From: Daucus carota subsp. sativus
Lineage: Eukaryota > Streptophyta > Magnoliopsida > Apiales > Apiaceae
Direction of reading: 5' to 3'
Length of the DNA: 64,000 nucleotides
Assembly (NCBI RefSeq): GCF_001625215.2
Contig: NC_030381.2
Location: 37,012,689 to 37,076,688 of the forward strand
The stretch's first letter is position 1. Each line of letters starts with the position of its first letter. Position numbers and translations under genes: made by a program. The notes under the pieces were generated by a model that worked only from the letters and a program-made list of their open reading frames with translations, was not told the DNA's origin and did not search any database. This document shows positions 35,014-47,810 of this stretch, one piece after another.

Positions 35014-35292
35014 TAAAAGAAAGCTAAGTGATTGTGATTGAAAATACATGAATTTTTATTTTCGTTATATTTTTTAGGTGCAAGTTTTGAAGTGAAATTA
35101 TATTATAATAATATTTATTTTTATTTACTTTCGTCTCTTTAAAAAATTCGAGAGCACAATTTTTGTTTTACTTGCTCCTTTATGTTTATAACTAGTGGAA
35201 AAAACGCGCTTCGCGCGAGTGAGAAAAATATAAATATAAAATATTTTATAAAAACTTTATGATCTATAATTTTTTAATCCCTTTATTTTATA

Positions 35293-35522
35293 CTCCCTCC
35301 GTTTTGAAATATAAGTTGTTTGACTTTTTTGCACGTATTTTTAAGTCATTTCACCGCAAGCTTATAATCATTATTTTTGAATTTTTTCTGAATAATAATA
35401 TTAATCACATATTTTTATTCAAAAAAAGAAAATTTCAAAAATAATCATTTTTAGCACGTGGTCAAAAGACTTAAAAATGCGTGCAGAGAAGTTGAGCGAC
35501 CTATATTTGAAAACAGAAGGAG
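35293..35522. mobile_element. Stowaway-like MITE
   Basis: 230 bp from CTCCCTCCGTTTTGAAATAT to the complement of CTCCTTCTGTTTTCAAATAT, flanked by TA. The arms pair over about 80 bp. Confidence 0.78.
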
Positions 35523-35542
35523 TATTTACTATTTAAATATAT

Positions 35543-35666
35543 GAAAATATAGAAAGAAAAAAGTTGTAAAGGCCCTGAAGGAACCTCACTACATAGTGAA
35601 GCTGAAAATATAGACGAAAGAAGTTGCAAAGGTCTTAAAGAAACCTCACTACAGAGTGAAGTTGAA
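35543..35666. repeat. Two-copy tandem repeat of about 62 bp
   Basis: Two diverged direct copies of a unit containing GAAAATATAGA, AAGAAGTTGCAAAGG and ACCTCACTACA(T/G)AGTGAAG. It lies inside the Helitron. Confidence 0.65.
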
Positions 35667-35739
35667 TAAATATTGAAAAGGATGGTTACATGTTTGATAT
35701 ACTCTCTCAATCACATGATTGGTTTCAAAGATTAACATC

Positions 35740-36700
35740 TCATCAAGGTTTGCCTTGCTATGAGGAATTTCAGTAACCTTTTCGGACTCTTCATCGCTCA
35801 ACTCCTAGTCAAAAATCCGTAGATACTGCTTAGTCTTTCTTTATTGAAGCTCTCGAACATAATAACAGCGCCTTGCTCATAGCATCATAAGCCCAATCTG
35901 AAAGCAACCTGAGCAGCAAATTTCCCTTTTGACTTTACAATTTCCATTAGAAGCTATACTTTAACTCACTACCTATAAAAAAGAATGAAAGAACTTGGAC
36001 GAAGGAGCACACTGCAAGTCTGCCGGAGCAATTTAATGATATATTGCTAGTACTGATAAGCTAAGTTACTGATTAACTACAGAATTATCTTAGTGTTTCC
36101 TAAACTTCAAACCAACTCATCTAGTCATCCAGGTGCAGTATCAAATCTCTGGCAAAAATAAAAAATATTTGATTTACAAAATATATGTTATGATATCACT
36201 CCAAATCGCAATCTGAAACCTGAAACAAACTTTTTCGCCTGAAGCTTAAATGCCTTTTGTGCCTATAATCCATATCTCAAATTTCAGGGTACTCACACCT
36301 TGTTACGGACTGCAACCATTATAGCCATTGTACACATGAATATATGTATTAGCGTTTTTCCTTCTAAAGTCTGGAACTGTAAAAACATAAGAAGGAAAAA
36401 AATAATACTAAAGTAATTATAGATTATAGTACTTGTAAATCAAAATTTAAGGCAAGTTTCAGTTAAAAACAGACTATGCATAACCTTTAGCTTTCAGAGC
36501 CATGTCCGAGAAAACTTGATGCCATATATTGGTAGAATGAGCTGATCAAAAAGACCTGTTGTTGAGTTTTAAAAAAGAAAAAGAGGCTCTAAAAATTAGG
36601 ATACAGTTTGGTTGATATAAGATCGATCAATATATCAAAAAATCATTTCATTAAGTTGCACCTTGAGAAATATACTCTTATATAATTAGGTACAGAAAAG
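35740..36700 (-). other. Helitron interior with unresolved coding-like stretches
   Basis: On the minus strand at about 35950-35700 a frame reads ELSDEESEKVTEIPHSKANL, and another holds KGKFAAQVAFRLG. These look like decayed exons, but I cannot assign them. They may be 3' flank of the captured gene or a second captured gene. Confidence 0.3.
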
Positions 36701-37195
36701 CACATCCATCAAGCTGGCTAGGTTTCAATGTTTTTTGGAAAACTCGTTTTGCCAAGGTAAACCTGTGGCATCTCCACTCTCCATGTCTGTAGCAGAAATA
36801 TTAATGTGGTCTTTAAATATTCATGTTGATTAAAACATGTTGTTTCTTTTTTGGTGCCCTTACATACCTAAGACTCTTCAACATATAGATCAGAGTTTTC
36901 ATTTGATGCAACTGAGTGGCTATCAGTGAAAGTGAAAATTTGTAGAGAAGAGGTGCATAATTAAGTATGTGAAGCAAAATAGAACTTTCTAAAAGTAAAC
37001 AGCATACCGTGCCACAAAATTCCAGCCTGATATGAGGCACATTCTTCCTGTAAATATCATTACCATATGGTCCTCTCTTGTAGCACTCCTTTCCAATCCA
37101 GTGGGACAATAAATAAAAAGGAATATAATTTGGTAGAGCTCTTCAAATATCAGAACAAAAATTGAAGAAACAGAAAGCATCATTGTAGTTCAAAT

Positions 37196-37550
37196 TGTAG
37201 AATATAAAACTAAGGATGCATATATAAGTACACGTGAACAGATGAATTGAACAAACTCATTCTTATATATTGAAACTCAATGAAAGCTTTGGTTCTGGTG
37301 GTGTACTCAGAACTCATACATGCCAAGATATATATAACCTCTAAAATAAACTTACTACTCCCTGAGGACTAGGAAATAGGAGTAATCTATCTCATTTTCC
37401 ACGTCTCCTTATTTCAGTAAACTCCTAAAAACACTTAACTTCTTAAGTCTTAGACTTACTGCATCATATAGAACTCTTATAGCTGCTTTATTCAAATAAA
37501 CTACCTAAAGTAAATAAATTATAACAATTGAATTTAAGATTATTCCAACA
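37196..37550 (-). repeat. 3' LTR of the gag-only element
   Basis: 355 bp. On the element's own strand it begins TGTTGGAATAATC and ends TATTCTACA. Near-identical to 38647-39001. Confidence 0.93.
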
Positions 37551-37697
37551 ATCACCCCCTTAATCTTAAATTTAATAAGCACTTCTCTTCATCTATGATG
37601 CACTTCTCACCACCATCATTTTTGATGCACATCTCATCAAAAACAAAATAACCACTTTAGAGCACTTCTCTCCATGGTGCACATAATCACCATAATT

Positions 37698-38555
37698 CTA
37701 AAGAAGAGGTTCTGCCTCAACCAATTGTGCCATGACTTCTTCATTGTTTTGGAACCTACAATTCTTTGCCAGATGCCCATATCTTTTGCAATTGAAGCAT
37801 TGTGGCTTTCCTTTGTGCCAACAATCATTTTCTTCATGACCGAGCTTTTGACAGTGGTTGCACTGAATTTTGTTGCCTGTGCCTTTGGAGAATGAAGTTT
37901 TTGCTAATAGGAGTCCCTCATTCTTTCCTCCTTTTTCTTCCACCCTCATTGATCTCCTTTGATCAACGGCACTCAAGGCATTGACCAACTCCATTAGGGT
38001 TATTTTGGATAAATCTTTGGAATCTTCAAGTGAGGATATTTTAGACTCATATTTTTCAGGAACACTCACCAGAATTTTATCAACAACCCTCTCATTAGCA
38101 AATGTTTCACCAAACAACCTTATTTGATTAACAATGCTCATAAGTTTACTCACATATTCCTTAATAGTTTCGTTCCCTTTCATCCGCTGCATCTCGAATT
38201 CTCGTTTGAGATTCAAAACTTGCATCAACTTTGTTTTAGCATTTCCTTCAAACTCTTCCTTTAGCGTGCTCCATGCCTCTTTTGGTGACTCGCAAGTCAT
38301 GATACTTGTGAAGATTCCATCCGACACCGCTGAATGAATACATGAGAGTGCCTTTGCTTCTCTTGCCGCTTCTTCGTCACGTTTTTTGATTTGGGCCGGT
38401 GTTGGATTTTGTGGAAGAAGGGTTAATTCAACATCACTTTCAATTGTTTCCCACAAACTCATAGCTTTCAAATATGATTTCATTTTGATAGCCCATGAAT
38501 TATAGTGATCTCCTTTGAACGATGGAATAGAGATGGAGAGGTTGTTTGATGCCAT
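37698..38555 (-). CDS. gag: Copia-type gag protein of the LTR element
   Basis: Intact 285-codon ORF. It starts MASNNLSISIPSFKGDHYNS, the usual start of plant copia-type gag (DUF4219 followed by UBN2-like domain, residues about 10-200: YNSWAIKMKSYLKAMSLW, EAWSTLKEEFEG, KEYVSKLMSIVNQIR). Two zinc knuckles of the form C-x2-C-x4-H-x4-C follow at about residues 232-266 (CNHCQKLGHEENDC and CFNCKRYGHLAKNC). Gag would form particles and bind the element RNA. The frame has no disruption, in keeping with the near-identical LTRs. The protein ends before any protease motif. Confidence 0.93.
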   Translation of the reverse strand: MASNNLSISIPSFKGDHYNSWAIKMKSYLKAMSLWETIESDVELTLLPQNPTPAQIKKRDEEAAREAKALSCIHSAVSDGIFTSIMTCESPKEAWSTLKEEFEGNAKTKLMQVLNLKREFEMQRMKGNETIKEYVSKLMSIVNQIRLFGETFANERVVDKILVSVPEKYESKISSLEDSKDLSKITLMELVNALSAVDQRRSMRVEEKGGKNEGLLLAKTSFSKGTGNKIQCNHCQKLGHEENDCWHKGKPQCFNCKRYGHLAKNCRFQNNEEVMAQLVEAEPLL

Positions 38556-38646
38556 TGAATATGAAAGCTAAATACTTAATATATATAGGTGTATGTATAA
38601 AAAAAATCAACTCACAAGCCCTAGATAACCTGGCTCTGATACCAAA

Positions 38647-39001
38647 TGTAGAATATAAAACTAAGGATGCATATATAAGTACACGTGAACAGATGAATTG
38701 AACAAACTCATTCTTATATATTGAAACTCAATGAAAGCTTTGGTTCTGGTGGTGTACTCAGAACTCATACATGCCAAGATATATATAACCTCTAAAATAA
38801 ACTTACTACTCCCTGAGGACTAGGAAATAGGAGTAATCTATCTCATATTCCACGTCTCCTTATTTCAGTAAACTCCTAAAAACACTTAACTTCTTAAGTC
38901 TTAGACTTACTGCATCATATAGAACTCTTATAGCTGCTTTATTCAAATAAACTACCTAAAGTAAATAAATTATAACAATTGAATTTAAGATTATTCCAAC
39001 A
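38647..39001 (-). repeat. 5' LTR of the gag-only element
   Basis: 355 bp; should contain the element promoter. It is followed on the minus strand by the initiator-tRNA primer-binding site. Confidence 0.93.
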
Positions 39002-39656
39002 CAAATACTATTTCCAGAAACATAAACATGATATCACAACCCCTTTAGCATGACAGCACAACCCCCTTTCCCATCCGAGAAACTATTTCTGTCGATCCTA
39101 CTGTAGCATGGCGACCATATCAGAAGAGATTTAATATACATAAAGAATTTTAGAAAAGCTCCTTAACAACTGTACCTTTAAAATATGTGAGAAACCTGAT
39201 TGGTAGAATGAATTACATGCAATCTCACATAAATCGCATGAGCCCAACTTCTACACCTGCAAGGGAAAAAGTTTGCATTATCATATTAATATCATCTCAT
39301 GTTTTATAATGCAAATAGATTAGGGAGAATACTCACTGAAGCATCTATACTGCATTCTTCAACCACGGGTGATTTTGTGTGATGAATTTGTAATGGATCA
39401 ACGGTTGAAAGGGAAACATTAAGGCCCCTGAAGAGGCAAAACTAAAGAAGGGAAACTGAAGAGATAAAATGTAATAAATTGCCTTTTCATCATCTCTTTA
39501 TATTTCTCAGCTTTAAATTTAATTTAATATTTCTCAGCTTTAAATTTAAAAGTAATTACTAAAATGTGAAAATCTAGAAAATGAGAGATTTGAGAGGAAG
39601 GATTGTGAAGCATGCCATGTCAGCCTCTCAAGATCCTCCTTTATATAAATATAAGA

Positions 39657-40901
39657 TAAGAAGATTCGAGAACAAGACCTGACAGCAAGGGTGAGGAGAA
39701 TCTTCAACAAACCCTTTTTTGTTTTCTACGTGCAGTGTATTCATATTGCAAATTAATGGGAACACTAACCAATCAACGTCTCCATATGATATAACGTCTG
39801 TGTGTCTAAAAAGCTGGTTGATACCCATTTTTATAAATAAGTAGAATAATTTTTAAAATTTGAATGCTAACTTTTCATTTAGAGTTTATATCTTATTTAC
39901 AAATATGTTATTAACATATTTAGTTCTCAATTATATGTCATTTTTTTATTTTTTTTGAACAAAAAGTATGAGAGTTAGTGATTATTGTATATCGTTAAGC
40001 ACATCATACAGAAACTTTTTGTTGATAACTATGGTTTTACCCGTACCAGGTAGAATGGTTATTTTTATTATATCAAAATAATCGTGTTAGTATATAAATC
40101 CAAACAGTTATTATTTACACATCTTTTATATAATTTTAATTTTGGTTTATATTTTTCTAGATGATATATATATTAAAATCATATTTTTTTCAAATCAAAT
40201 ACTATATACAATAATTTTTCCTTTATATTACTTGGGGATCAGTATAGAGTCACTTTAGGATTATTTTTTTTTTTAACAAAATACTTACAAAAATTTTGCA
40301 TAGGTCCAGAGAAATATTAGACAATACTATCTGAGCTTTCGAATTTTGAAACTCAAAATCTCTGCGACCTGGGTTCGGATTCCACCCTATTCACGAATTC
40401 TTCCCGATGCTCATATGATATTAGTTCTTTTGGGAAACCCGATCGAACGAGATGATCCTCGCAAAAATTTGCCAACAGTCTTGAATATTCTAAAATTAAA
40501 TTATATTATACTATATTTTAAAATTAGTTAATAAATACTCAATACGAATCAACATTTAGTTAAAGTATATTTAAAAAATAAACATAAAATTGATATATCT
40601 TATTATAATATAAAATAATTAAAAATATAATATAAAAGCACATATAAAAGTATGTTATTTTTGATAATTTATATAATGTTATGCACAGAAATTTTAATAG
40701 TACATGAGTACTGGGGAGTGTAAAAGTTTAGGTGTTCCCATACATGATTAATGTAAAATTTAGTTATGATAAAATTAATATGATTGGTATAACTTAGTAA
40801 GTTAATTCGCAAGTTATAGAGTAATAAACTTACTCAAACAGACATCATGTTAACTCGTAAGTGAACTCCTAATTCATGTTACTCAAAATTTAAGACACAT
40901 T
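39657..40901. other. AT-rich spacer
   Basis: No gene recognised. A GACCTGGGTTCGGATTCC block at about 40368-40386 resembles a tRNA-derived B box but no tRNA fold or A box is evident. Confidence 0.45.
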
Positions 40902-41114
40902 GTGGGTGTTTGTTTAGGACTTATAAGTCCAGCTTCTAGATTATAAGTTAGAAGCATTTATTCGTATTGGTAGGAATGCTAGCTTTTGTTTCAGGACTTC
41001 TACTTATTTCCCAAACACTTTAATCACTTATAAGTTTTATCTTGTTTCTAACCTCTACTCCACTTATTTATTTTAAGCAAGAAGCACTTATTTTAAGCTG
41101 ACCCAAATGACCCC
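40902..41114. mobile_element. MITE of the TTATAAGT family
   Basis: 213 bp. Ends GTGGGTGTTTGTTTAGG and (complement of right) GGGGTCATTTGGGTCAGC, with ATT on both sides. It shares TTATAAGTTAGAAGCA and AATCACTTATAAGTTTTA blocks with the element split by the CACTA insertion at 53.1/56.9 kb. Confidence 0.68.
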
Positions 41115-41428
41115 ATTATCTTTAAAATTGTAACATAAGGAGGCCATGGTCACCTCTTAGCCTCGGCCCGACTATGTGGTTAGGTTTTTAGGTGATTTAA
41201 GTATTATTCAGTTGAAGAAATCTTGATCATAGCTAGCTTATATAAACATTGCCGTCAAATGCAAGTAGGTGATGATGAGTTGTACTTGTTACCAACCAAG
41301 ATATGTTACGAGTAAACAGACTCTATTAAGATAATATTAGTAAAGTTGCTCCATCATAAAATATGTATTCTTCAAGCAGATGCGAGCACTTTGTTCACTT
41401 GAACCTTTCTCATTACAGTATATACACA

Positions 41429-45926: not shown

Positions 45927-47810
45927 TCACCTTGTGATGTGATCAGCTGATGGCATATAGCTCATTGCAAAACAAGCTTGATCATCTGCAAATATTCTAG
46001 CTGCAGTAGTACCATTATTTCTTGGTTTGGCTGCTTCGAAATCTCGCTTACAAGCATGACAAGTTATTTCCAACATGAGAGAACGGATTTTGTTCGTAGC
46101 TTGCTCCTTGGCAATCTGGGCCTTTTCCAGCTCCGCCTGTGCTGCTTGCCTTATTCTTTTAGCATTACCCAACTCCATCTCCGCCAATTCAATCTGCCTC
46201 TTCCCTACTTTCCTCGCTTCGTCTGCCAACGCCTTCTCAGCCATCGCTTTCTTCAAGGACTCCTCTTCTCCACCTCCTTCATCGGTCCTTCTGTTTTCGT
46301 TGTCTTGTATACTGCATGATGATGTTCCAATGGAGAGTTTCAACTGCGTCGAGTTATTTTCATTGCGGCTACTGTAAAGTGAGCATTCTTGCATATGTGA
46401 TGTTGATGGTAATAGCCGTAGCTCTAAGTTGTGTTGGTCAAAATTTTCATGATCCAATTGTGGATGAGTATTGGTTACTGGCATTGAGAATGATCTTGAC
46501 AATGTGACCCAATCAGTCAAGTTTGCATCACTAGAAGGACTTGTGCTGGAAGCTGGACGAGGTGGGCAAACCTGTTGCTGCTGCGGCAAGCTTGCGTGTT
46601 GATGATTCGGTCGGATCTCCCGGATATTGCAGGCATCTTGGTGCTCAATGAAACTCTCAACTCTGAAAGATATATATAAAAACACAAACTACTCAAATAT
46701 ATGTAACAACATACATGTGGTAACTTAATTGGTAACTGAAGCTTCCTTGTGTTGAGCTACCAACTAACAAGCAAATAAAAGATCGCTAATAATTTACTCA
46801 ACCAAATTCTATTGAATTTATGAATTACTATAATCATTATTGACCTTAGCACTCCTAAGTACTAAATATATAATTTAGCATGAAGTCATAATAAGCACCA
46901 GGAATATTTATTGGGTTCATCTAAAATCATTGGGATGATGCATTTTCAATCGGGTTATCGAGAATGACAATGAGATTTCAGTATCCGAATGCATTAGAAT
47001 TTTATTCTCATTTTCATTACCTTGGTTGCAATCCCATGATACAAAAGGCGCGTTATCTCAGAAATGTTGAGAAAGTTAAAAAAATTTAGTCACACTTTTA
47101 GGCATATATCTTTTATAGCCATTTTTAGTTTGAGTAGTGGAAAAATGAACAATGACTGAATGAAGAATTAGCTGCTAGTAGTGTACTAGTGAATGAGGGA
47201 TTTAAAACCTGGAAAAGACACGACCACAGTCACAAGAATGACCCCGGGTGCCACAAGTCTTGAGATGGGCCTTATAATCCGACTGAACCGCATAGCCTTT
47301 GGAACACTTGTCGCACACCCACTGCTTATTATCGCTGTGTTTCCTTCGAAAGTGCTTCTTAATCCCCACAAGATCCCCCAGCGCGTGGCACGGATCATGG
47401 TGCAGGCAGCTCGGCTCAGGGCACACGAACACCCGTTTCCTCACCTCATCCGCCGAGGCCTCTCTTTTGAGCAACTTCCACGGCACCTTGTGCCTCCTCC
47501 GGTGCATCTGCAGGTTCTGGTCTCTCTGGAACCCTTGCTTGCAGATCTCACACACGTATCTATCTGACTCCATTAAGGTCTTTGGTGATAATGAAACCAC
47601 TTCAGCATCTGGATCTGCAACCACAAATAATACTCCCTCAATAAATAACAACTAATATTAGTGTATAAGTCATGTAAATGCAAATGTAGAAGTACTTTAG
47701 GATTAATTGCAGAGACCTGGAGTGCCAGCGGGTCTTCTTTTTCTGCGAGTAAAAGCATGATGAGCAGAAGGACAGGTGGAAGATGCAGTAGGATTGCTAT
47801 AGTCTAACAT
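45927..47810 (-). CDS. INDETERMINATE-domain zinc-finger factor (IDD14/15/16 type)
   Basis: Three minus-strand exons join in frame to 411 codons: 47810-47717, 47614-47209 and 46662-45927, with GT/AG borders. A basic nuclear signal RRKRRPAGTP (residues 22-31) precedes the ID domain: C2H2 finger 1 (C53, C56, H69, H73), long C2H2 finger 2 (C96, C101 ... H119, H124), C2HC finger 3 (C132, C135, H148, C152) and C2HC finger 4 (C159, C161, H174, C178), the last split by intron 2. The C-terminal half has the alanine/glutamate-rich helix (EKALADEARKVGKRQIELAE) and ITCHACKRDFEAA typical of the IDD14/15/16 clade. Those factors bind DNA and, in Arabidopsis, act in auxin supply, organ shape and shoot gravitropism (IDD15 is SGR5). 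All zinc ligands are intact. I cannot tell the three orthologues apart. Confidence 0.92.

Follow-up and report, generated by a model that had tools for sequence, protein, structure and literature searches.

Results

A Helitron with recurrent ends on carrot C1

The window analysed here is the 64,000-nucleotide stretch C1:37012689-37076688 of the carrot genome, and the copy of the element that it holds is referred to as the window copy or C1 copy. On the minus strand at 35192..39664 lies a non-autonomous Helitron with gene fragments, delimited by copies of its ends throughout the genome, by the pairing of these ends and by a full copy at C8:16.64M. The 3' terminal region (35192..35292, minus strand) finishes in CGCGCGAAGCGCGTTTTTTCCACTAG followed by T, the last base being 35192; by its parts the terminus reads CGCGCGAAGCGCG TTTTTTCCA CTAG, then T at 35191, with the hairpin at 35217-35205 and CTAG at 35195-35192. 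The window has a single instance of this hairpin-CTAGT pattern, which all 100 shuffles lack. Folded as single-stranded DNA the hairpin reaches -6.3 kcal/mol (z -2.2), and equally stable shuffles were 2 in 200. The 5' terminal region (39435..39656, minus strand) starts with TCTTATATTTATATAAAGGAGG. Comparison with the other copies would place the 5' end at 39656; 39664 is also possible, as the window copy and C8:16.64M have about eight further bases in common. The element is flanked by A on its 5' side (39657 or 39665) and by T on its 3' side (35191). Likewise, T follows CTAG in all four copies read at the 3' end, and A precedes TC in most of the 5' copies read. A CTRR 3' terminus preceded by a short hairpin was read in the window, C8:16.64M, C3:41.51M and C8:11.75M, and the 5' TC is conserved among the copies, though not in every one read: C8:4.70M has a TA run at the end, and the copy L052 has TG.

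A query with the 5' part of the element, in which position 95 corresponds to window position 39656, gave 47 matches when the best 40 of 91 candidates were scored. Besides the window, 36 of them begin at query 84-103, in about 31 separate places; the other 10 do not start at the terminus and were excluded from the list of 5' ends. A query with the last 108 bases gave 40 matches including the window, 39 of them elsewhere (best 40 of 89 candidates scored). These matches stop at query 102-106 in 31 of 40 cases and at 102-104 (35191-35189) in 26, and 19 stop exactly at 103, two bases beyond CTAG. For at least 10 of the 40 scored 3' ends, including those of the window and C8:16.64M, a 5' end lies 2.1-6.5 kb upstream on the same strand, and no 3' end is accompanied by an opposite-strand 5' end within 12 kb; the two ends thus recur together as units elsewhere in the genome. 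The remaining 30 have no 5' partner among the scored matches. Given that scoring was limited to the best candidates, the end counts are lower bounds. A strict 3'-end pattern was found in none of 25 short 5'-end loci, most of which are too short to reach the 3' end. A search with Helitron_like_N, in which 150 of 344 candidates were scored, gave at least 168 matches in the genome. The original prediction of a minus-strand Helitron with a TC 5' end and a hairpin-CTAG 3' end is borne out by the end structure and by the recurrence of the ends, and the other Helitrons with the same termini that it proposed to seek do exist. No PF14214 (RepHel) match falls inside the window element or, with positions compared by eye, in the ten paired elements, among the matches listed. 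The sole open reading frame of at least 120 amino acids inside the window element is the gag of a nested LTR element.

The AMP deaminase fragment and its donor

The first captured segment is an AMP deaminase fragment (36639..39429, minus strand) that runs from a partial exon to the 3' UTR, with the LTR element inserted in it. A partial exon is followed by three whole ones, together with their introns, in order and on one strand, as had been claimed, and the fragment matches C5:37578065-37579024 with 88.5% identity over 810 compared sites. The exons, placed by alignment, are a partial one at 39337..39428 and whole ones at 39176..39256, at 37008..37106 and, the last, with its natural stop retained and supported also by splice sites, at 36718..36786, all on the minus strand. 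PF19326 covers most of its profile, exon by exon, at three places in the genome, C2:58778946-58783835, C5:37572384-37578666 and C8:31849350-31855371; its other matches are fragments, including one at C5:18622383 that is unrelated to the Helitron. PF19326 is the right model, a genome search with PF00962 having returned nothing. Only the C5 gene aligns with the Helitron through the introns at exon-level similarity, and it is the parental gene that was to be sought; with the C2 gene the alignment over the first short intron is weak (73%). Given the homology in the introns, capture took place at the DNA level.

The C5 homology spans about 0.96 kb and no more; it begins halfway into the exon bearing SLSTDDP and ends just past the stop codon. 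On the window it begins at 39429 and ends at 36639, that is, 0.2 kb and 1.4 kb inside the ends of the Helitron, and nothing of the donor extends past 35192 or 39656. The left breakpoint, with related non-AMP deaminase sequence before it, is also found at C8:16.64M, C8:4.70M, C3:6.02M and C3:46.08M. The right junction can be compared in three copies, those of the window, C8:16.64M and C8:4.70M, and is the same in each.

All three lesions described earlier are confirmed by the alignment, and with them the view that the copy is dead. In the partial exon SLSTDDP has become SLSTVDP (GAT to GTT), a change private to the window copy among the copies aligned; C8:4.70M has CAT (His) at this position, and in C8:16.64M the Thr before it is changed. 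In the next exon a Trp codon has become a stop (TGG to TAG). The acceptor in front of the third exon, at 37110-37107, is ATTG in the window where the donor has ATAG. The TAG is found in five of the six Helitron copies aligned, namely the window, C8:16.64M, C8:4.70M, C3:6.02M and C3:46.08M, and not in C8:11.75M (the fragment at C3:6.78M was left out of this alignment). Because most copies have this stop in common, the comparison suggests that the fragment was already unable to encode a C-terminal domain when they spread.

Further captured DNA and nested transposons

The content of the Helitron had been predicted only in part: the AMP deaminase fragment stands, and the element also has a second and a third captured segment and two transposon insertions, all of them overlooked. 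The second captured segment (35956..36631, minus strand) is partly common to two places on C8, C8:118175-118986 and C8:100416-101227. These lie 17.8 kb apart (within C8:116677-120008 and C8:98918-102249) and are nearly identical over 812 bases. They were rejected as donors, with a K2P distance of 0.004 from each other and of about 0.2 from the Helitron copies. A Pfam scan covering the first of the pair, C8:118k, gave weak matches to ANF_receptor (receptor ligand-binding), Sec15 and PPR near segment 2, all below the curated cut-offs, and this place is probably a gene-fragment mosaic.

The third segment (35535..35955, minus strand) is an aldo-keto reductase fragment of the codeinone/chalcone reductase type. 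This assignment is based on PDB 7mbf, matched at E 6.7e-5 by a query in which X linked the pieces, and on a related piece at C3:41.51M. The latter matches PF00248 with E 4.7e-5 and 23 bits, where the cut-off is 24; another piece there has no match, and a Pfam search of the window's own pieces gave none. The best match outside Helitron-like places is C8:32163587-32163972 (80-84%), within a run of matches at C8:32110-32164k. Reductase-like pieces adjoin Helitron 3' ends elsewhere, for example at C2:6674706-6675096, C3:41510186-41510656 and C8:2080106-2080433.

The second captured AMP deaminase intron is occupied by a gag-only copia-type LTR retrotransposon (37196..39001, minus strand) with LTRs at 39001-38647 and 37550-37196, a target site duplication ATTTG and a gag reading frame at 38555-37698 (Retrotran_gag_2, E 9.5e-36). 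The 355-bp LTRs differ at one position, and the insertion site is uninterrupted in two copies and in the donor. Plant substitution rates would date the insertion to about 0.1-0.2 million years ago, which makes it much younger than the Helitron copies. Next to the 3' terminal region lies an unstranded MITE with TA flanks (35293..35522), which we take to be Stowaway-like from its end sequence and TA target. Its inverted arms of 97 nt are 79% complementary; it has dozens of matches in the genome, and its site is uninterrupted in the C8:16.64M copy. About 6 kb from the Helitron, at 45927-47651, minus-strand reading frames are present that look like those of a plant C2H2 zinc-finger protein with a INDETERMINATE domain.

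Copies, divergence and differing right halves

The copy at C8:16637574-16639691 runs from end to end, without about 0.2 kb (39248-39049) and without both nested insertions. The window copy differs from the donor by K2P 0.126, from C8:16.64M by 0.111 and from C8:4.70M by 0.126; donor and C8:4.70M differ by 0.098. In segment 2 the three copies are equally divergent (0.095-0.099). In a GTR+G tree for which the C2 gene served as outgroup (C3:46.08M and C3:6.78M left out) the Helitron copies stand apart from the donor, with ultrafast bootstrap values of 97 for the window, C8:16.64M and C3:6.02M, 91 when C8:4.70M is added and 81 with C8:11.75M. Divergences and tree together indicate that spread came fairly soon after capture. 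Plant substitution rates are 0.7-1.3e-8 per site per year, and with these the K2P range 0.095-0.126 translates into an inferred age of roughly 4-9 million years.

The C8:4.70M copy shares its left half (5' end, AMP deaminase fragment and segment 2) with the window and C8:16.64M, and homology breaks at 35955. Beyond this point it carries Prp19 (PF08606, E 4.9e-14) and class I chitinase (PF00182, E 5.7e-10) pieces, whereas the window and C8:16.64M continue with a reductase fragment plus 3' end, a combination also carried by several other Helitron ends. Two events would account for this difference: Helitrons may have swapped their right halves, or fragments may have been lost and others acquired anew.

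Two insertions interrupt the C8:4.70M copy. One, of about 5.3 kb (C8:4697445-4702773), resembles a further Helitron, from a different family: A, then TCTGCTATATC at one end, and hairpin CCCGTGCCTTGCACGGG with CTAG, then T, at the other. The second (C8:4696233-4696708), before the last exon, is 0.5 kb long with an A-rich tail and LINE-like by appearance. At C3:46076645-46079254 a further family member has both Helitron ends and a shortened AMP deaminase piece; 90 bp of it are 95.6% identical to a stretch in the far part of the C8:4.70M copy, and mitochondrial carrier and glutaredoxin pieces considered in it had no Pfam match. In the window itself, 144 bp at 40975-41118, perhaps a dispersed repeat, are 74% identical to a stretch that lies about 0.2 kb upstream from the AMP deaminase fragment at C8:11.75M.

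Discussion

We are highly confident that the C1 element is a non-autonomous rolling-circle Helitron that carries a captured piece of an AMP deaminase gene and has since decayed. Could the same arrangement have arisen by a segmental or tandem duplication, or a retro-copy, of AMP deaminase that came to lie near Helitron-like ends by chance? A genomic duplication would fit exons that follow each other on one strand with their introns, and these same introns rule out a retro-copy. The breakpoints in turn speak against segmental duplication, given that donor homology ends inside the element on both sides and that four further loci, two on C8 and two on C3, have the left one; we give such origins hardly any credence, and capture by a Helitron, as originally predicted, is what the limits of the donor homology and the shared left breakpoint support. 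Whether the donor piece was captured once and then spread, or several times independently, is a finer question. C8:11.75M speaks for repeated capture, as it has a different left boundary, keeps TGG and is without an intron insertion that three others have. Against it, the C1, C8:16.64M, C8:4.70M, C3:6.02M and C3:46.08M copies have the left breakpoint and the TAG in common, and the first four join apart from the donor at a bootstrap value of 91. Several independent captures are thus unlikely for the family; for C8:11.75M, which joins the other copies at only 81, an independent capture may have taken place.

A question remains, does the Helitron act on its donor gene? FAC1 is the essential AMP deaminase gene of Arabidopsis, and the original prediction envisaged antisense or chimeric RNA against an essential embryo gene. 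This argument does not transfer to the donor, because the carrot genome holds three AMP deaminase genes. Moreover, exact sharing between the Helitron and the donor is small: 37 21-mers, of which 11 are wholly exonic, 15 24-mers and no 30-mer, the longest shared run being 28 nt and intronic. Captured sequences in maize are described, in the part of a review consulted, as siRNA reservoirs for donor genes (PMC13317346). Judged from sequence comparison, effects of the carrot element on its donor gene are possible, yet action by antisense or small RNA seems to us very improbable.

For capture and spread of the Helitron we propose the following history. The element acquired a genomic AMP deaminase piece of about 0.96 kb from C5, from mid-exon into the 3' UTR with its introns, and also picked up segment 2 and the aldo-keto reductase fragment, host DNA presumably being captured by copying during rolling-circle replication. 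It was then copied to several chromosomes, presumably mobilised by RepHel proteins in trans, after which the copies decayed; the window copy was later struck by the MITE and, very recently, by the gag-only copia-type LTR element. A tentative addition, on which we would not yet rely, is that Helitron halves reassort by template switching between Helitrons in rolling-circle copying. If true, such half-swapping would build multi-gene mosaics, as opposed to adding one fragment each time.

The element is a clear, ordinary multi-fragment plant Helitron of an already known kind, more composite than previously held, and picking up and shuffling gene fragments is biologically expected Helitron behaviour. 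Our analysis documents multi-fragment capture in carrot with donor, breakpoints and copies, and with the small family one can work out in which order the fragments were captured, or how halves may have been exchanged. Our literature search found nothing that treats Helitrons and AMP deaminase together, and among the papers listed on related topics none had a title on carrot Helitrons that capture genes. The carrot DH1 v3 study reports a Helitron that disrupts DCAR_730022 (PMC10581907); the portion of it consulted has no captured gene fragments in carrot Helitrons. Non-autonomous Helitrons of maize and rice, according to the excerpt seen, have a TC 5' end, a CTRR 3' end, A/T insertion and a 3' palindrome (PMC2575219), and the carrot element shows the same TC, CTRR and palindrome, with A/T read here from the flanks alone. 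The maize helA gene-fragment Helitrons, as far as the sections consulted describe them, acquired fragments stepwise and share them partially among related elements (PMC3288121). Like helA, the carrot element has conserved 5' and 3' ends, a CTAG terminus and fragments from several loci that are partly common among relatives; unlike helA, it has other termini and another host, and a pair of its copies shares the left half and differs in the right half from 35955 onward.
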